Source: Microscillaceae bacterium
GTDB taxonomy: Bacteria; Bacteroidota; Bacteroidia; Cytophagales; Microscillaceae
Direction of reading: 5' to 3'
Assembly (NCBI GenBank): GCA_025054775.1
Contig: JANWZA010000035.1
Coordinates: 1-55,018 of the forward strand
Length of the DNA: 55,018 nt
Numbering within the stretch: the first letter of the stretch is position 1; each line of letters begins with the position of its first letter. Shown here piece by piece: positions 1,595 to 42,537 of this stretch. A model generated the notes under the pieces. That model worked only from the letters and a program-made list of their open reading frames with translations. It searched no databases and had not been told where the DNA came from. A program made the position numbers and the translations under genes.

Positions 1595-3466
1595 ATGTGT
1601 GGTATAGCAGGTTTTTTTTCTATAAAACAGCAATTGAACGAAACAGACCTCAAAAAAATGACCAACGCCATAGCTCATCGAGGCTATGATGCCGAAGGAT
1701 TTTTTTTTGATGGTTTGTGCGGCCTTGGACACCAACGATTAAGTATCCTAGACTTATCTACCAAAGCCAACCAACCCATGACTTCACAAAACGAAAGATA
1801 TGTCATTACCTACAATGGTGAAGTTTATAACTATCAGGAAATTGCCCCAAGCCTGAATATAGCTTTGAGAACTACCTCAGACACAGAAGTTATTTTAGAA
1901 GCCTTTGCTCAACGCAATATTCATTCCGTTCATCAACTTAACGGCATGTTTGCTTATGCTATTTATGATAAATTTAAGCAAGAACTCTATCTTTTTCGCG
2001 ATCGTATTGGTATCAAACCTCTTTTTTATTATTGGGACGGAGAAACTTTTGCGTTTGCCTCCGAACTGAAGTCCATCATAACTTTGCCTAATGTTTCCCA
2101 AAAAATCAATTTTGAGGCTATTCATCATTTTTTACATTTAGGCTATATTCCTGCACCTAAAACTATTTACCAAAATATCTATAAGCTCCCTGCAGGTAGC
2201 TGGATTAAAATCAGTAAAAAAGAATTCATCTTAGAAAAATACTGGCACATTCAAGAAAAAATATATGACCTTGCTACTCAAGAGAAGCTGAACAACCTAA
2301 TAAAAGAGCCAGAAGCAAAACAACAATTAGAAAAATTATTACATTCTGCTGTGAGAATGCAACTAATCAGCGATGTACCTTTGGGTATTTTCTTGAGTGG
2401 AGGCATTGACTCAAGCATTATCACGGCAATTGCTTCACAGAATAGTAGTCAAAAAATCAATACCTTTTCTATTGGTTTCAAAGAACATAAATATAATGAA
2501 GCAGACCATGCCCGTGCAGTAGCCAAGTACATAGGTACTAACCATGAGGAGTTTGTAGTCTCAGTAAAGGAAGCTTTAGAACTTATACCCCAACTCCTTA
2601 ATATTTATGACGAACCTTTTGCAGACTCGTCTGCTATTCCTACCTATATGGTCTCCAAGTTAGCACGAAAACACGTAAAAGTGATACTTTCAGGCGATGG
2701 TGGTGATGAATTGTTTCTAGGATATGGTATGTACCAATGGGCAGAGCGGCTAGCAAATCCTTTCTTGAAAAACGTACGTAAACCCCTAGCAGGGTTATTT
2801 AGCCCTTTCAAAGTTATTAAGTATCAAAAGGCAAGAGCTATTTTGAATTATCCTAACAAACAGGATATTCATAGCCATATCTTCTCGCAAGAGCAGTTAT
2901 TTTTTAGTAAAAGAGAACTAGACGAAATACTAATCGTTCCTGAAGGTGAAGAAAATTATCAGCCTTTTCGCTATGTTGGTCTCAAATGCCAGCGTCCTTT
3001 GCAAAACATGGAAAAACAAGCCCTCTTTGATTTGGAATATTACCTACCTGACGATCTTTTGGTGAAAGTAGATAGAGCCACCATGCAGCACGCCTTAGAG
3101 GCGCGTGTGCCCTTACTTGACCATAGATTAGTGGAATTTGCTATTAACTTACACCCTGAACTTCGTTATCATAACGGTGAAACCAAGTACTTGCTCAAAA
3201 AAGTACTTTATCAATATGTTCCTGAAAATTTATTCAAACGACCAAAGCAGGGATTTGCTATCCCATTAATGCAGTGGTTGCAAAAAGATTTATTATTTTT
3301 GTTAGAAGATTACTTGTCAAAAAGCATAGTCCAAAAGTATAACATTGTAAAATACGAAGTAGTAGAAAACTTAAAAAAACGCTTTCTTAAAGGGGAAGCA
3401 TATTACTACAATCGCCTTTGGGCTTTAATTATATTACACCAATTTTTACAAAAAAGTATCCCCTAA
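1595..3466 (+). CDS. asnB: Asparagine synthetase, glutamine-hydrolysing (AsnB type)
   Basis: 623 residues, the normal size for this family. It begins MCGIAGFF, so Cys2 becomes the N-terminal nucleophile of the class II glutamine amidotransferase domain; RGYDAEG and NGEVYNY are also typical of that domain. The synthetase half carries the ATP pyrophosphatase P-loop SGGIDSS (about residues 267-273) and ends with VDRATMQHALEARVPLLD. The reaction is aspartate + glutamine + ATP to asparagine, glutamate, AMP and PPi. Members placed next to glycosyltransferases often amidate sugar acids in exopolysaccharides, so a role in glycan modification rather than bulk asparagine synthesis is possible here. A 173-bp gap separates it from the GT2 gene. 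Confidence 0.93.
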   Translation: MCGIAGFFSIKQQLNETDLKKMTNAIAHRGYDAEGFFFDGLCGLGHQRLSILDLSTKANQPMTSQNERYVITYNGEVYNYQEIAPSLNIALRTTSDTEVILEAFAQRNIHSVHQLNGMFAYAIYDKFKQELYLFRDRIGIKPLFYYWDGETFAFASELKSIITLPNVSQKINFEAIHHFLHLGYIPAPKTIYQNIYKLPAGSWIKISKKEFILEKYWHIQEKIYDLATQEKLNNLIKEPEAKQQLEKLLHSAVRMQLISDVPLGIFLSGGIDSSIITAIASQNSSQKINTFSIGFKEHKYNEADHARAVAKYIGTNHEEFVVSVKEALELIPQLLNIYDEPFADSSAIPTYMVSKLARKHVKVILSGDGGDELFLGYGMYQWAERLANPFLKNVRKPLAGLFSPFKVIKYQKARAILNYPNKQDIHSHIFSQEQLFFSKRELDEILIVPEGEENYQPFRYVGLKCQRPLQNMEKQALFDLEYYLPDDLLVKVDRATMQHALEARVPLLDHRLVEFAINLHPELRYHNGETKYLLKKVLYQYVPENLFKRPKQGFAIPLMQWLQKDLLFLLEDYLSKSIVQKYNIVKYEVVENLKKRFLKGEAYYYNRLWALIILHQFLQKSIP

Positions 3467-5898: not shown

Positions 5899-6399
5899 CT
5901 TTCTTATCTAATGATTTAGTCATTTATTTTTATTTTCACTCTCACTGAAAAAGTACTTTTCAGCAGAATGTTTTTTGCAAAAATACTATTTTTGTTTGAA
6001 AAGTATAAAAAAGGTATAAAAGTTATACAACTATTCAGTTTAGTGATATCCTTAAACAGATAGGTAAGCAAATTCGTAGATTATACTTGGTTGAAAAGCT
6101 AAAAAAATTGAAAAAATTGAAAAGACAAGTCTTATAGATTTACTGAGCGAAACTCCAAAGCATTAAGCAAGTACCTATAAGTCTGCCTTTTATCTTTTTA
6201 GCCAAGGGCGAAAAGAACAAAAAGAGCAATCAAAAAGAAAACAGAAACATTTTTACAAAAACTTAATCAATCCTGATAATCAACAATTCAGGAGCTAGGA
6301 TTTTCTGTTCTTATGCAAATCTATGACTAAGTAGAAAGCTAAGGAAATAATCTCAGGCATAAGAGCGGATAAAAATTATGAAATACTTAATTTTTGTAT
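5899..6399. other. Intergenic region, no gene seen
   Basis: The 500 bases contain a palindrome, CTGAAAA-AGTAC-TTTTCAG (5945-5963), and on the minus strand a -7-like TATTTTTG (complement of 5978-5985) that could serve the DUF3098 gene. The rest is A/T-rich, with many stops in all frames. Confidence 0.35.
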
Positions 6400-27256: not shown

Positions 27257-27307
27257 TGATAATAACTTATCACCTAAAATTTACCTTTTATTCCTTTGTT
27301 TACCACT

Positions 27308-28204
27308 ATGAAAAATATAGCTATTATCGGTTCTGGAACTATGGGCAATGGCATTGCTCACGTATTCGCTCAAAATGACTTTCAAGTAAGCCTGTGTGAT
27401 ATATCTCCCGAGGCACTCTCCAAAGCCCTCGCTACAATAGAAAAAAATTTAGACCGACAAATCCAAAAAGCAACTATTTCAGAGGAAACCAAGCAAAAAG
27501 CTTTGCAAAACATCAACACGTATACTCTTATTGCCGAAGCCGTACATAATGCTGACCTCGTTATAGAAGCTGTATCAGAGAACATTCAAGTAAAACTAGA
27601 AGTATTCAAAGATATTGACCACTTCGCCCCCGAGCATACTATCTTAGCCTCTAATACTTCTTCTATTTCTATCACTAAAATAGCTGCTAATACCCGCCGA
27701 CCTGACAAAGTAATCGGTATGCACTTCTTCAATCCCGTCCCTATTATGAAATTAGTTGAGGTAATCAAAGGCTATGCGACCTCTGAGGAAACGACGCAAA
27801 AAATCAAAGAAATTTCTGAAAAAATAGGAAAAATTGCCGTAGAAGTAAACGACTATCCCGGTTTTGTTGCTAACCGCATCCTTATGCCCATGCTCAACGA
27901 AGCATTTTATACACTTTACGAAGGTGTGGCTGGCGTAGAGGAAATTGATACAATCATGAAATTAGGTATGGCGCACCCTATGGGGCCTCTGCAATTAGCC
28001 GATTTCATAGGTTTGGATATTTGTTTAGATATTTTGAGAGTAATGCACACTGGTTTGGGCAACCCCAAATATGCTCCTTGCCCACTCTTGGTCAATATGG
28101 TAGAAGCAGGACACAAGGGAGTTAAGTCAGGTATTGGTTTTTATGATTATTCACACGGAGGCAAAAATCTTGTAGTATCCCCACGATTTGCTAAAAATAA
28201 ATAG
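27308..28204 (+). CDS. hbd: 3-hydroxybutyryl-/3-hydroxyacyl-CoA dehydrogenase
   Basis: 298 residues from ATG 27308; the frame also extends four codons to a TTG at 27296, which is ignored. The dinucleotide fold IAIIGSGTMGNGIAHVFAQ opens the protein, HFFNPVPIMKLVEVI holds the catalytic His and NP pair, and PGFVANRILMPMLNEA starts the C-terminal domain. It converts 3-hydroxyacyl-CoA to 3-oxoacyl-CoA with NAD(P) in fatty-acid oxidation or butyrate-type metabolism. A palindrome over the promoter suggests it has its own regulation. Confidence 0.94.
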   Translation: MKNIAIIGSGTMGNGIAHVFAQNDFQVSLCDISPEALSKALATIEKNLDRQIQKATISEETKQKALQNINTYTLIAEAVHNADLVIEAVSENIQVKLEVFKDIDHFAPEHTILASNTSSISITKIAANTRRPDKVIGMHFFNPVPIMKLVEVIKGYATSEETTQKIKEISEKIGKIAVEVNDYPGFVANRILMPMLNEAFYTLYEGVAGVEEIDTIMKLGMAHPMGPLQLADFIGLDICLDILRVMHTGLGNPKYAPCPLLVNMVEAGHKGVKSGIGFYDYSHGGKNLVVSPRFAKNK

Positions 28205-28260
28205 TTTGCTCATATTTTCAAAATATTATCAATCCTAATTTTTAGTGGGCGTTCCTCCTC

Positions 28261-28379
28261 CCTTTTTTCGCTTTGCTCAAAGGGCTTCGGAGGAACTTTG
28301 CAGGGCTTCGCTAACGCTTCGGTGCTTCGCACTAGGCCCTGCACGCTTGCTCTTTCAATCCCTAACGCATTTGAAAGTA
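28261..28379 (-). repeat. Interspersed intergenic element, copy A
   Basis: Read on the minus strand, the element contains, in order, TACTTT, GGATTGAAAGAGCAA, a 20-base variable segment, AGCACCGAAGC, TAGCGAAGCCCT, GCAAA, CCCTTTGAG and GAAAAAAGG. The same blocks in the same order and spacing occur at 40976-41102. Copy A can fold: GCAGGGC in the variable segment pairs with GCCCTGC downstream, enclosing GTGC-GAA-GCAC. Confidence 0.7.
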
Positions 28380-28620
28380 TCAAAAAAATCAAAAGCTCTG
28401 GCATTGTTAAAATAGTATAGATAAATGATCTTAAACTTTACAAAATTTTGTTGACTTGCATTTTGGACATCGTTCCCATAGTTTCAGGGTTTTACTAATT
28501 TTTTTGCAAAAAAAAATCTATACAAAATTAACAATACTCTGTTTTTTTATCTTCCGATTTATTAGTTTACAGCCTAACCTTGCAAGCCTAACGGCTAGCT
28601 CCTAACTATGCTTTGAATTT

Positions 28621-28849: not shown

Positions 28850-30850
28850 ATGAAAACAAAAACAACTGAAATGTACTTTAACCGAAAAAATTACACTGAC
28901 GAGCAACTTTTTTATATCTATAAAGCACTCATCAAACCCCGCCTTATTGAAGAGCGTATGCTCATTTTGTTAAGGCAAGGTAAAATTTCTAAATGGTTTT
29001 CAGGCATGGGGCAGGAAGCCATTGCGGTAGGAAGCACATTAGCCCTTGAACCTACGGACTACATCTTACCCTTGCACCGAAATTTAGGAGTTTTTACTAC
29101 CCGTGGTATTCCCTTAGATAGACTTTTTGCTCAATTTCAGGGGAAAAAATCAGGCTATACCAAAGGGCGCGACCGATCCTTTCACTTCGGAAGTAAAGAG
29201 CATCACATCGTAGGTATGATTTCGCACTTAGGACCGCAACTAGCCGTAGCTTGTGGTATCGCTTTAGCCGAAAAATTGAATAGAACCAAAGGGGTTGCCT
29301 TAGCTTACACTGGTGATGGAGGTACTAGCGAAGGCGATTTTCACGAAGCCCTTAACGTAGCCTCAGTTTGGGATCTGCCTGTTATCTTCTTGATTGAAAA
29401 TAATCAATATGGACTTTCTACCCCTACCTCAGAACAATACCGCTGTAAGCATCTGGTAGACAAAGGCATTGGCTATGGCATGGAAGCCGTACAAATTGAT
29501 GGAAACAACGTGTTAGAGGTGTATAGTACCGTCTTACATTATGCTACCGAAATGCGATACCACCCACGCCCAGTTCTCATTGAAGCAATTACCTTCCGCA
29601 TGCGAGGACACGAGGAAGCCTCAGGCACAAAGTACGTTCCACAACATCTATTTGATGAGTGGGCTTTGAAGGATCCTATCGCTAATTATGAAAAATATTT
29701 GATTGATAACCAAATTATTTCGCAAAAAATGGCACTAGACGTGCAAGAGATTTTTAGAAAAGAAATTAACGATGCCTTTGAAAAAGCCTATAACGAAGAC
29801 TTTATCGTACCTAATACCGAAGAAGAATTAGCCGATGTGTATGCACCTTATCACCCTAAATATATCGCTCCAAATTTTCAGAATGTCGCTGAAAAACGCA
29901 TGATCGATGCCATTTCTGACGGCTTACGGCAAGCCATGATAAAATTTCCTAATCTAGTACTTATGGGACAGGATATTGCCGAGTATGGAGGAGCATTCAA
30001 AATTACCAAAGGTTTTGTAGAAGAGTTTGGCAAAGAACGTGTACGAAATACGCCTTTGTGTGAGTCAGCTATTATAGGAGCAGGGTTAGGTCTATCAGTT
30101 AAAGGTTGGAAATCAGTAATTGAAATGCAATTTGCTGATTTCGTGAGTATGGGTTTTAATCAAATCGTAAATAATTTGGCTAAAATTCACTGGCGCTGGG
30201 GGCAGAATGCTGACGTAGTAATACGCATGCCCACAGGAGCAGGCACTTCTGCAGGTCCCTTTCACTCACAATCCAATGAAGCATGGTTCTTCCATACCCC
30301 AGGCTTAAAAATCGTATACCCCTCCACACCATATTATGCCAAAGGGCTACTTTGTGCCGCTATTGAAGATCCTAACCCTGTTATGTACTTTGAACATAAA
30401 TTTTTGTATCGTTCTACCCTAGAAAACATACCCAACGAATATTATACCTTACCCATAGGCAAAGCCCGCTACGTAACGCAAGGCAATGAAATTACAATTA
30501 TTACTTACGGCTTAGCAGTACACTGGGCAAAAGAAGCCTTAGACGAACTCAACTACCACGAAGCCGATCTGATTGACCTTTGTACTCTCTTACCTTGGGA
30601 TACGCATACTGTGGCTGAAAGCGTAAAAAAAACAGGAAAAGTACTGGTATGCCACGAAGATACCCTTACAGGAGGAATTGCAGCCGAAATATCTGCCTGG
30701 ATCGCAGAGCATCTTTTCCAATATCTAGATGCACCTATCATGCGAGAGGCTTCGCTAGATACCCCCGTACCTTTCGCCAGTACTTTGGAGCAGAATTTTT
30801 TACCTAAAAAACGTATCAAAGAAAAAATACAAAAATTGATAGCATTCTAA
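28850..30850 (+). CDS. 2-oxoacid (2-oxoisovalerate) dehydrogenase E1, fused alpha-beta subunits
   Basis: 666 residues, equal to an E1-alpha (about 1-330) joined to an E1-beta (about 345-666). The alpha part has GMGQEAIAVG, the HRNLGVFTTRG region and the thiamine-diphosphate motif GDGGTSEGDFHEALNVAS with ENNQYGLSTP. The beta part has VLMGQDIAEYGGAFKIT and GGIAAEISAWIAEHLF. It decarboxylates branched-chain 2-oxoacids (or a related 2-oxoacid) and passes the acyl group to E2. E2 and E3 genes are not in the window. Single-chain E1 is usual in Bacteroidota. Confidence 0.92.
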   Translation: MKTKTTEMYFNRKNYTDEQLFYIYKALIKPRLIEERMLILLRQGKISKWFSGMGQEAIAVGSTLALEPTDYILPLHRNLGVFTTRGIPLDRLFAQFQGKKSGYTKGRDRSFHFGSKEHHIVGMISHLGPQLAVACGIALAEKLNRTKGVALAYTGDGGTSEGDFHEALNVASVWDLPVIFLIENNQYGLSTPTSEQYRCKHLVDKGIGYGMEAVQIDGNNVLEVYSTVLHYATEMRYHPRPVLIEAITFRMRGHEEASGTKYVPQHLFDEWALKDPIANYEKYLIDNQIISQKMALDVQEIFRKEINDAFEKAYNEDFIVPNTEEELADVYAPYHPKYIAPNFQNVAEKRMIDAISDGLRQAMIKFPNLVLMGQDIAEYGGAFKITKGFVEEFGKERVRNTPLCESAIIGAGLGLSVKGWKSVIEMQFADFVSMGFNQIVNNLAKIHWRWGQNADVVIRMPTGAGTSAGPFHSQSNEAWFFHTPGLKIVYPSTPYYAKGLLCAAIEDPNPVMYFEHKFLYRSTLENIPNEYYTLPIGKARYVTQGNEITIITYGLAVHWAKEALDELNYHEADLIDLCTLLPWDTHTVAESVKKTGKVLVCHEDTLTGGIAAEISAWIAEHLFQYLDAPIMREASLDTPVPFASTLEQNFLPKKRIKEKIQKLIAF

Positions 30851-40350: not shown

Positions 40351-40848
40351 TTACGATGAAATTTCTGTTGGTCTTCTGTTCCAAACTATTTTAGCAATGC
40401 CTTCATGAATTTGTTGCCAGTCGTCAATAGAAAGTTCTAGTAATACAGTTTCACAGGTGGCAAGTGTGGCATAGCGGCTTGGAATAAAATAATTGACTAA
40501 CTCTGAAATAGCAGGGTTGTGCCCTATGAGGGCTACTCTACTTATATCGTTAGGTATGTTATGTATCAATTCTAATAAATGATTGAGATGTGCTGCATAG
40601 ATAGTAGGCTGGAAAATAATATGCTCTTTGCTAATATCAAGCACATCAGCAATTACTTTTGCTGTTTCAGTAGTACGCTTAGCAGGGCTAACATAAAATT
40701 TCTCTACCAAGATTCTACTATCCTTTAAGGCTTTACCTATCTCTAAGGCTTCACTAATGCCTGTCTTTTTTAGAGGTCTGTCAAAATCAGCTTGAAATGG
40801 TTCAATATCCTTAGCTTTAGCATGGCGAATAACTAAAAGGTATTTCAT
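40351..40848 (-). CDS. sixA: SixA-like histidine phosphatase
   Basis: 165 residues of the histidine-phosphatase (phosphoglycerate-mutase-like) superfamily in its short form. The catalytic RHG-type motif is LLVIRHAKAKD (Arg8-His9) and the second His is in VALIGHNPAISELV. SPAKRTTETAKVI is the usual third motif. SixA dephosphorylates phosphohistidine on signalling proteins such as HPt domains or PTS NPr in E. coli; the substrate here is unknown. Confidence 0.85.
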   Translation of the reverse strand: MKYLLVIRHAKAKDIEPFQADFDRPLKKTGISEALEIGKALKDSRILVEKFYVSPAKRTTETAKVIADVLDISKEHIIFQPTIYAAHLNHLLELIHNIPNDISRVALIGHNPAISELVNYFIPSRYATLATCETVLLELSIDDWQQIHEGIAKIVWNRRPTEISS

Positions 40849-41151
40849 TTACATTGACCTATTATTAGTTTTGACAAAACTTATTAGATTATGTTCTGCA
40901 AAAGTAATAAAAAATTCTGAGTTAGAGTAAACGAATTTATTTAGCTGTTATTTGTTTTAGTCAGAATTTAGGGAGTACTTTTCATTAAATACGTCAAGGA
41001 TTGAAAGAGCAAACCCGAGGAGTTGAGAGCTGAGCACCGAAGCTTAGCGAAGCCCTCTGCAAAAGCCTGCTCCCCTACCCTTTGAGTAATAAGAAAAAAA
41101 GGCAAAAAGAAAGCTCAAAAAACTTAAAACTTGAAAACAAAGACATTCTGC
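40849..41151. other. Intergenic region with interspersed repeat
   Basis: The 303 bases hold copy B of the repeat in the middle and AT-rich sequence either side. No promoter or gene was recognised. Confidence 0.4.
40976..41102 (+). repeat. Interspersed intergenic element, copy B
   Basis: Plus-strand copy with TACTTTTC, AGGATTGAAAGAGCAA, a 20-base variable segment, AGCACCGAAGC, TAGCGAAGCCCT, GCAAA, CCCTTTGAG and GAAAAAAAGG. Copy A at 28261-28379 (minus strand) has the same order and the same 20-base spacing. The variable part differs almost completely. The frame that is open through copy A has three stops here. Confidence 0.7.
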
Positions 41152-42537
41152 TTAAATCTTCACGAATTTCAAATTAGGTTTAGGCATCTGTGGGTTGAGG
41201 TATTGGTTAATAAACAAAGCTGCCCCAATGGCAATACCTTCAGGAATATCAGCAACTAATATAGTAGCTTCATTGTATATTTCTTTCAAGGTATTCAAAA
41301 ATACCTCATTTTTGGCATAGCCTCCATCAACCACGATGTTCTCAGGGAAACGCTTTTTAACAGTAATATCAATAGATGGTTTAAGATACATTACCATATC
41401 AAAGAAAAAGCGATGATAGGCCTCTTCGTAATTTTCAAAGACAGAGAGATTCCAATCCTCGGTAGTCTCCTCTTTTTTGATAGTTCCCTCTTCAGTAAAA
41501 AAATGAGGTTTTAATTTTTTATCCAAGTTGTCCTCTTCGGCTTGTGCTTTTTCAAAGAGGTCAAAATCAAATTTTACGGATTTGAAATAGTCTATAGGCT
41601 TATCAAAATGTTTTGCCATACGTTCAGTTTGGTAGGCGTGTTCATTTCCCAAGAAGAAGCGTGCAGAGCGGATACCTCGCCCTTGAACGGTCATGTAAAG
41701 CAAGCAATCTCGCAGCAGGTCTTCAGGTTTGAGCGGAGCATATTCAAAGGGATTGAGTGTGATGCACCAAGTACCTGTAAATGAGAGTAATAAGAAACTT
41801 TTTTCTAACATATATAAGTAGGTACGAAGCGAGGAAGAGCTATCGTGAATACCCGTTCCGATAGGAATTTGCACACCGTTATATTCCTTATAATCAATTA
41901 CAGGGCTTGTGGCAAAGTCAGGTAAGATGTTAATAATACCCTCATCCTTAATCCATTGGTGGTAGTCGCGTTTTTTGAAGTTCCACATAGCTGTATGGCA
42001 ACCGATGCTAGTATACTCCGTAGTTACTTTTCCTGTAAAGAGGTGTGCCATGTATTGAGGAAAGTGCAAAGTATAGCGAATACGCTCAAAAAGATGAGGT
42101 TTTTTGTATTTAAGCCAATAAATTTGTAAACCTGAATTGAGCATACCTAATGGTGGAGAGCAGGTTTCTAGGGCGAAATCTAGGGGGTTACCATAGGTAG
42201 CATGAAATTGCTCGTGTAAGTCTTTTGGAAATTCTTTGAGATAAGAGTAAAGTGGTGTAACGTCATTGCCCTGCTCGTCAATATGCATGAGCGTAGCTCC
42301 ATAAGTAGTAAAATTTAAGGCTTTAACTTGAAAGCGGCTATCGGCTAAAAGTTCGTTCCAAGTATCTATTGCCCATTGCTTAATAAATTGTAAGTCATCA
42401 GCAGGAAAGCCGTCATCATCTTGTACTTTTTCACAACGTGCTGAATAGATGTGCACAACTTGAAACTGCTCGTCAAAAAGTACTAATTTTTTATTTATGT
42501 TGCCAATATCAAAAACAGCAGTTACGGGTGTTTTCAT
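41152..42537 (-). CDS. FGGY-family carbohydrate kinase
   Basis: 461 residues of the FGGY (glycerol/xylulose/rhamnulo-kinase) sugar kinase family. The N-terminal phosphate loop is VFDIGNINKKLVLFD and LNFTTYGATLMHID follows. The catalytic region is IGTGIHDSSSSL, and LLSFTGTWCITLNPF and IVVDGGYAKNEVFL form the ATP side. The Asp in GIHDSSS is the likely general base. It phosphorylates a sugar or ketose; the substrate is not evident and no isomerase, aldolase or transporter is adjacent, so it is an orphan kinase gene. Confidence 0.82.
   Translation of the reverse strand: MKTPVTAVFDIGNINKKLVLFDEQFQVVHIYSARCEKVQDDDGFPADDLQFIKQWAIDTWNELLADSRFQVKALNFTTYGATLMHIDEQGNDVTPLYSYLKEFPKDLHEQFHATYGNPLDFALETCSPPLGMLNSGLQIYWLKYKKPHLFERIRYTLHFPQYMAHLFTGKVTTEYTSIGCHTAMWNFKKRDYHQWIKDEGIINILPDFATSPVIDYKEYNGVQIPIGTGIHDSSSSLRTYLYMLEKSFLLLSFTGTWCITLNPFEYAPLKPEDLLRDCLLYMTVQGRGIRSARFFLGNEHAYQTERMAKHFDKPIDYFKSVKFDFDLFEKAQAEEDNLDKKLKPHFFTEEGTIKKEETTEDWNLSVFENYEEAYHRFFFDMVMYLKPSIDITVKKRFPENIVVDGGYAKNEVFLNTLKEIYNEATILVADIPEGIAIGAALFINQYLNPQMPKPNLKFVKI

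Follow-up and report, generated by a model that had tools for sequence, protein, structure and literature searches.

REPs, which carry GTAG or CGTC tags, and REPINs are intergenic, palindromic, of high copy number and divided into sub-families with complementary changes in their stems, according to passages of PMC3733652 and PMC6006769. The former source also mentions CGTC repeats without a dedicated transposase, with Bacteroidetes among their hosts, and the latter describes the RAYT/TnpA_REP subclass 2.6 of Bacteroidetes, whose genes are flanked by atypical repeated secondary structures of which copies occur elsewhere in the genome. MITEs are short, non-coding and dispersed, and have complementary ends. 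The element reported here, from the same phylum as subclass 2.6, shares these general features with each of the three groups, apart from the tags of the REPs.

Flavo-1 (RF01705) has to be considered as well, and its entry in the motif table of PMC2864571 is ‘y, n, n’. The type assigned to it by Rfam is sRNA gene. We take the columns of the ‘y, n, n’ entry to be RNA, cis-regulatory and riboswitch. RF01705 is also named in PMC3765529 and PMC7682815, and PMC9723704 reports for F. psychrophilum that Flavo-1 matches lie in sense or antisense of transcribed regions alike, with many outside them, that several structured 5' transcribed regions coincide with such matches, and that matches so indifferent to transcription give no functional clue. 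Among the titles and passages covered by literature searches on the family we found no account that treats Flavo-1 as a mobile repeat, and among the matches listed for strings of the family in print there was no title on Bacteroidota repeats.

The window, by which we mean the whole stretch of 55,018 nt that was analysed, belongs to contig C18 of a draft genome of 3.01 Mb. A preliminary description had noted two copies of a sequence element, inverted relative to each other and 12.7 kb apart, with a series of shared blocks in the same order, all of which are present in the sequence. Copy A (28246..28369, + strand, 124 nt; 103.6 bits, E 2.8e-19 with the covariance model R1) is intergenic, its neighbours being a 3-hydroxyacyl-CoA dehydrogenase gene (27296-28204) and a dehydrogenase E1/transketolase-type gene (28850-30850). 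Copy B (40990..41117, - strand, 128 nt; 82.7 bits, E 1.2e-14) is likewise intergenic; on one side of it lies a histidine-phosphatase-type gene (40351-40848), on the other an FGGY carbohydrate kinase gene (41152-42537). The limits of both copies are those of the family alignment, and the ones proposed before were off by about 10-15 bases. A third, decayed copy that had escaped notice lies between listed frames at 6107..6232 (- strand; 41.4 bits, E 1.7e-5). No tRNA was found in the window. For one flanking protein, Cytophagales account for most of the best named relatives (Pontibacter, Rufibacter, Fulvivirga and a Microscillaceae MAG, 66-73% identity), in a search that kept 80 loci and from which the host's own records may be left out.

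The element is not restricted to the window. BLASTN with 161 bases around copy A returned 40 genomic places at E<=1e-3 (the query included), the best of the others being 86% identical to the query; copy B ranked 32 with an E-value of 8e-10, so the resemblance between copies A and B is well above chance. R1, the covariance model built for the window's family, found 64 places in the same genome at E<=0.001, one of which is counted twice because the overlapping contigs C43 and C50 both start in that copy, and its list up to E 1 has 80 rows, with overlapping reverse-strand rows among them. The genome has about 60 copies rather than two. As contigs C50 (L027 1-200) and C43 (L037 1-200) begin in or just beside the same copy, the assembly breaks at the repeat. 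In alignment A1, which comprises 35 copies kept from the genomic places, pairwise identity has a median of 75.6% and a maximum of 96.8%, the latter between different loci. Well-preserved copies start with TGGGCG and finish with ACGCA, and the flanks beyond vary from copy to copy, so that the ends are sharp; a typical length is about 125 nt. The genomic copies, the covariance model and the fold show that these sequences form a dispersed family of structured repeats, and support the earlier view that conservation is at the level of the nucleic acid. We favour, with a probability of roughly 0.6, the interpretation that the element, of about 125 nt, is a mobile repeat of the REP/MITE-like kind and is non-autonomous.

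Against this one has to weigh the possibility that the copies are what remains of an ordinary insertion sequence, since an internally deleted IS1-type relic (at about 28400-28543) adjoins copy A and 18 other genomic places match its right part; a fuller copy of that IS1-type element (L422) has InsA-like and IS1-transposase-like frames. An end of this type was, however, seen in just 4 of 57 stretches that were scanned around copies in this genome, the window included, and it is unlike the ends of the element. Moreover, all copies of which both ends are seen are shorter than 180 nt, too short for a transposase gene. An origin as insertion sequence debris is largely refuted by these data and must be rated as very improbable.

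The fold that we propose has a closing stem, P1, which joins both ends of the element. In copy A its 5' arm GCGTT (28249..28253, + strand) pairs with AACGC (28364..28368, + strand). The left hairpin P2 follows (28254..28293, + strand) and is the most compensated stem of the family (9 of 13 pairs). The inner stems, as they appear in folds of well-kept copies, are P3 (GGG/CCC and TT/AA), P4 (AGGGC/GCCCT) and the hairpins P5 (GGTGC/GCACC) and P6 (AAGCCC/GGGCTT), the last with a family consensus of AAGCCC-loop-GGGCTT and some compensatory changes. Single copies, copy A included, also have alternative folds. The GCAGGGC/GCCCTGC stem that had been suggested for copy A is not a family feature, as both of its arms occur in 3 of the 35 aligned copies and the family structure pairs these bases otherwise. 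The stretch between GGATTGAAAGAGCAA and AGCACCGAAGC had been described as exactly 20 nt long in copies A and B with nearly all of its sequence different, and this is correct for these two copies (28327..28346, + strand, in copy A, where it covers the right side of the P5 hairpin and the P6 region); it is not a rule of the family, some copies being up to 11 bases longer there.

Automatic folding of the first alignment gave a weak consensus (-4.46 kcal/mol, 18 pairs), and the structure was therefore taken from folds of a single copy, L012. Because it was thus chosen from one of the aligned sequences, pair statistics on A1 lean towards it. With this bias in favour, 87.4% of the 1440 cells pair, as compared to 85.1% in shuffles and 32–56% in slid controls, and there are 46 double-change cells (23.6 in shuffles, 12–25 in slid controls). 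For the same L012-derived structure, 18 pairs are changed on both sides versus 13.3 in shuffles. Of 500 shuffles, 16 reach this number, and one slid control has the same. The count of further pair types (54) is not above that of shuffles (50.9). Two of the five measures on A1 are weak. One pair of the structure, between columns 61 and 136, is not real, as it is A-C in 16 of 35 copies.

A test of P1 that does not depend on this structure used a search pattern which leaves the ends untouched. It returned 60 stretches from IMG/VR contigs, which may be proviral or host DNA, and 13 of these had both ends according to a pattern for the ends that permits mixed pairs. The inner P1 pair is complementary in all 13, with GTG/CAC in seven, GTT/AAC in six and no mixed case; the GCGTT arm of copy A thus has covarying counterparts in relatives. 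One stretch is present twice among the 13, which leaves 12 and a chance of 1 in 924, and two more have common flanks, leaving 11 and a chance of 1 in 462.

Compensatory stem changes would also be found if the copies belonged to a family of structured non-coding RNAs, the view that Rfam takes of Flavo-1, in which each copy is or was transcribed and selection keeps the RNA fold. The copies in the genome under study argue against this. Wobble cells show little asymmetry (104 GU versus 83 AC with the false pair excluded, 104 versus 99 with it included) and no clear strand preference. Outside P2, paired columns are barely more conserved than unpaired ones, with change rates of 0.110 and 0.138, respectively. 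Changes from the consensus run from GC to AT in 365 cases and from AT to GC in 163, a drift towards A+T of the kind that neutral decay would be expected to produce in an AT-rich genome (GC content is 52% in the copies and 36% in the window). The small difference between paired and unpaired columns and the A+T-ward changes together indicate that the likeness of these copies is mostly due to descent rather than to selection on the fold. The number of copies per genome, from dozens to more than 100, their dispersal and, in the genome studied here, the lack of a fixed orientation relative to genes also fit poorly with an RNA gene family; further points in its favour come from Flavo-1 and are taken up with it below.

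Placement was analysed for 56 copies, namely 55 of the 64 and one at C41:3058 (E 0.0019), with frames of at least 70 codons called by length only. No such frame is overlapped by 41 of the 56. Among the frames that overlap the other 15, two of the three longest overlap upstream of their likely start and the third looks spurious, and the other 12 have 76–93 codons. The copies are thus intergenic as far as tested, and the element is unlikely to be a protein gene. Confinement to two copies, chance similarity and membership in a known insertion sequence or protein gene had been named beforehand as outcomes that would speak against a repeat family, and as far as tested none of them applies. Target duplications were not found in the 56 copies, the best z of 2.7 over 1352 left/right combinations being at chance level. 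The left (5') flank of these 56 copies is a T-tract, with 86, 80, 75 and 77% T at positions -1 to -4, and the right (3') flank is more weakly T-rich (43–57% T at positions 1–6). For the 48 copies with frames on both sides, 17 positions are divergent, 22 co-directional and nine convergent, so gene ends are not preferred.

GC-rich hairpins in AT-rich intergenic DNA, with T-rich flanks, might instead represent a cis-acting signal that the host uses repeatedly, such as a transcription terminator, an mRNA stabiliser or a protein-binding site, and REPs elsewhere have cis-acting side effects (as described in passages of PMC6006769). However, divergent placement is at least as frequent as convergent placement (17 versus 9 of 48), and the stronger T-tract is located 5' of the conserved orientation, where terminators need none, with the 3' side T-rich as well. 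Relatives of the element are missing at orthologous sites in 8 of 20 genomes (see below), and none of 14 same-family genomes has a member of the family at E<=0.001. We regard a role as a repeatedly used host signal as improbable.

The element differs from each of the classes of mobile repeats described above. Unlike REPs and REPINs it has no GTAG or CGTC tag at its ends, is about 125 nt rather than 20–40 nt long and consists of several hairpins closed by a terminal stem, and no RAYT (Y1_Tnp) gene was detected in its genome. Unlike MITEs it has a terminal repeat of only about 5 bp, corresponding to the five complementary, covarying bases seen near its ends when tested for terminal inverted repeats; target duplications are lacking and no parent transposon was found. 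In contrast to the repeats of RAYT subclass 2.6, Flavo-1 is not enriched beside Y1_Tnp genes (1 of 30 loci above the cut-off), in a comparison that took these genes together irrespective of subclass.

Searches for Y1_Tnp, RVT_1 and IS110 genes as possible movers of the element gave no candidate. Y1_Tnp has no match at E<=0.001 in the element's own genome, and it was not found in three of the 22 other genomes searched (G226, G109 and G242). One of 30 fetched Y1_Tnp loci holds Flavo-1 above the Rfam cut-off, and in the 15 loci from genomes with counted copies the single Flavo-1 compares to 0.64 expected, which is chance level. A RAYT/Y1 mover is therefore not supported, in view of the missing gene and of the missing enrichment. 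A copy found by pattern search in G075 (L144) is located next to a Y1_Tnp gene, but this is a single case. Around that gene (L144 1000-2000) there are several short palindromes, of GAAGTCCTTCGGACTTC and CAACCCCTGCGGGGTTG types, which look like its own REP-like repeats. Genes for a reverse transcriptase (RVT_1) or an IS110 enzyme were not detected in the element's own genome. An integron attC site, which the AACGC end had brought to mind, was considered unlikely in view of the attC consensus.

Relatives are patchily distributed. At E<=0.001, R1 has matches in two of 26 related genomes besides its own (three in G015, one in G020); the 14 genomes of the same family gave no match, and the relatives searched included no congener of the host. 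A search pattern made for GC-rich ends matches 37 of 296 genomes of the phylum, the element's own included. Since the reversed pattern, used as a control, also matches 23 genomes, many single pattern matches must be due to chance. Both ends were present in 20 of 30 loci fetched from the pattern matches, and the clear ones are in the window's class. Among 11 loci with GGGCGTG...CACGC-ended elements, four match Flavo-1 on the opposite strand, two of them above the cut-off.

This led to an overlap with an annotated family. When the Flavo-1 model was applied to 12 genomes at E<=0.001, with up to 150 candidates scored per genome, seven genomes of genus g33, which to judge from the Rfam family name is probably Flavobacterium, had 38 to 126 matches each. 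Other genomes under the same threshold and scoring had 42 (G038), 42 (G151, weak ones only), one (G218) and no matches (G015). In the element's own genome the model has none at E<=0.001 (150 of 553 candidates scored); an Rfam search of the window found no match, Flavo-1 included, and the Rfam model gave nothing up to E 1 for eight loci with copies from this genome. R1, in turn, finds the bridging copies L107, L048, L067, L068 and L066 at E-values of 6.5e-11 to 2.8e-5 in a 45-kb search, and of the four Rfam-matching copies it finds L104 (E 0.19) and L091 (E 0.69) weakly and misses two.

Flavo-1 and the window's family both have many dispersed copies, and in both an outer stem is followed, in similar order, by a left hairpin, an inner stem and a variable inner hairpin. 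They differ in that the window's family has the P5 and P6 hairpins and a length of 125 nt, and in that the Rfam model finds none of its copies in the genome studied. The extent of the annotation also differs from that of the element: the Flavo-1 match in the GGGCGTG-ended L104 omits the first ~20 bases, i.e. the 5' closing arm and most of the left hairpin, and in canonical copies the match omits a conserved extension on the right. To the right of many Flavo-1 copies (L366-L405), outside the Rfam match, there is a GGTTTTCAAAAGAA-like stretch, which may extend the unit, and a similar one is found beside the L101 element. Judged by these sequence comparisons, common descent of the window's family and Flavo-1 is likely, and the former looks like a distant, unannotated relative of the Flavo-1 repeats. 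We infer that the Bacteroidia relatives with the same ends and stem order, and those that match Flavo-1, share this descent.

Forty Flavo-1 copies from the top of the score list (13 from G230, 17 from G195 and 10 from G199) have stems that are near-perfectly complementary and switch between Watson-Crick types with very few intermediates. Two fixed columns aside, there are 11 G-U versus one A-C on the Rfam strand, seven of the 11 being from one pair. Template switching between arms in DNA can also keep stems perfect. The perfection of the Flavo-1 stems may thus reflect selection, the picking of copies that score best with a structure model, or DNA template switching. For an RNA family one may cite that near-perfect stems could mean a selected function, the excess of G-U over A-C on the Rfam strand, the sRNA listing of Rfam together with the motif table of PMC2864571, and, from PMC9723704, several structured 5' transcribed regions of F. 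psychrophilum at Flavo-1 matches. The same paper, however, has these matches indifferent to transcription, and when this is combined with the apparent neutral decay of the copies in our genome, we consider a conserved RNA fold to be an unlikely explanation of the family, to which the G-U excess in Flavo-1 still lends some weight.

Mobility, one of the options raised in the preliminary description, is supported indirectly, by near-identical copies at unrelated loci and by presence/absence patterns at orthologous loci of relatives. The elements of L092 and L103, from two genomes, share 95% identity across 99 nt, and for their flanks no alignment was reported; the pairs L092/L100, L101/L103 and L098/L105 have flanks in common. 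The L101 locus is matched by 96 of 199 genomes of genus g33, and 20 of the 30 loci fetched align on both sides. The element is present in 12 of these 20 (the query genome included) and absent from eight. Three of the empty sites (L350, L353 and L359) show a nearly bare junction at an A/T run, and the other five hold unrelated bases or a rearranged flank; in occupied sites, a further 35 or so bases next to the ACGC end are extra too. The tree of the flanks requires five changes and is poorly resolved. As it is compatible with a single origin followed by losses, loss may explain the presence/absence pattern. At the L127 locus, which has a GGAGC-ended Flavo-1, 15 of 30 fetched loci align. The element is held by eight besides the query; two lack it cleanly, one has a truncated version and three have other sequence. 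A Flavo-1-matching copy had no match among plasmids. Two short Microcystis plasmid matches to a copy from the genome studied here were taken as chance.

If the element is indeed a mobile repeat, we envisage that its folded DNA, extruded or single-stranded, would serve as substrate for a trans-acting enzyme, and that this enzyme would copy or move the element next to T-tracts in intergenic DNA without target duplication. The copies would then decay towards the base composition of the host. The present genome may have lost the enzyme, in which case the majority of its copies would be fossils that stem from a GC-rich master. The data can be explained without a function for the host, and two odd intergenic stretches in the window would be accounted for as repeats. 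A more far-reaching and tentative interpretation, which we think possible but rather doubtful, is that there is a Bacteroidia-wide class of mobile multi-hairpin DNA, partly filed as Flavo-1, with a mover other than Y1/RAYT, reverse transcriptase or IS110 that would recognise the whole closed-end fold, and that the window's genome carries a divergent branch invisible to the Rfam model. If the element and its relatives are mobile repeats, a frequent ‘small RNA’ annotation in Bacteroidota (up to 126 matches per genome in the 12 genomes searched) would mark mobile DNA and not an RNA gene, with consequences for genome annotation and for the evolution of intergenic DNA in this phylum, and a mobilising activity would be expected as well.

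A few arrangements of copies are worth recording. On contig C41 (L066), two GC-rich copies (216-392 and 3058-3170) are inverted and enclose 2.7 kb; they end with GTG/CAC as in the Bacteroidia-wide form, unlike most copies of this genome. Two inverted copies are also located near the two ends of an IMG/VR contig of 9169 bases that is classed as viral (L304). To the right of some copies in the genome studied there is a CTTTCTAAAA-like stretch, a possible extension of the unit. In L073, L074 and L075 (contigs C57, C13 and C53), the bases to the right of the ACGC-side end are common to the three copies and unlike those of the others, which would fit duplication of a longer unit.
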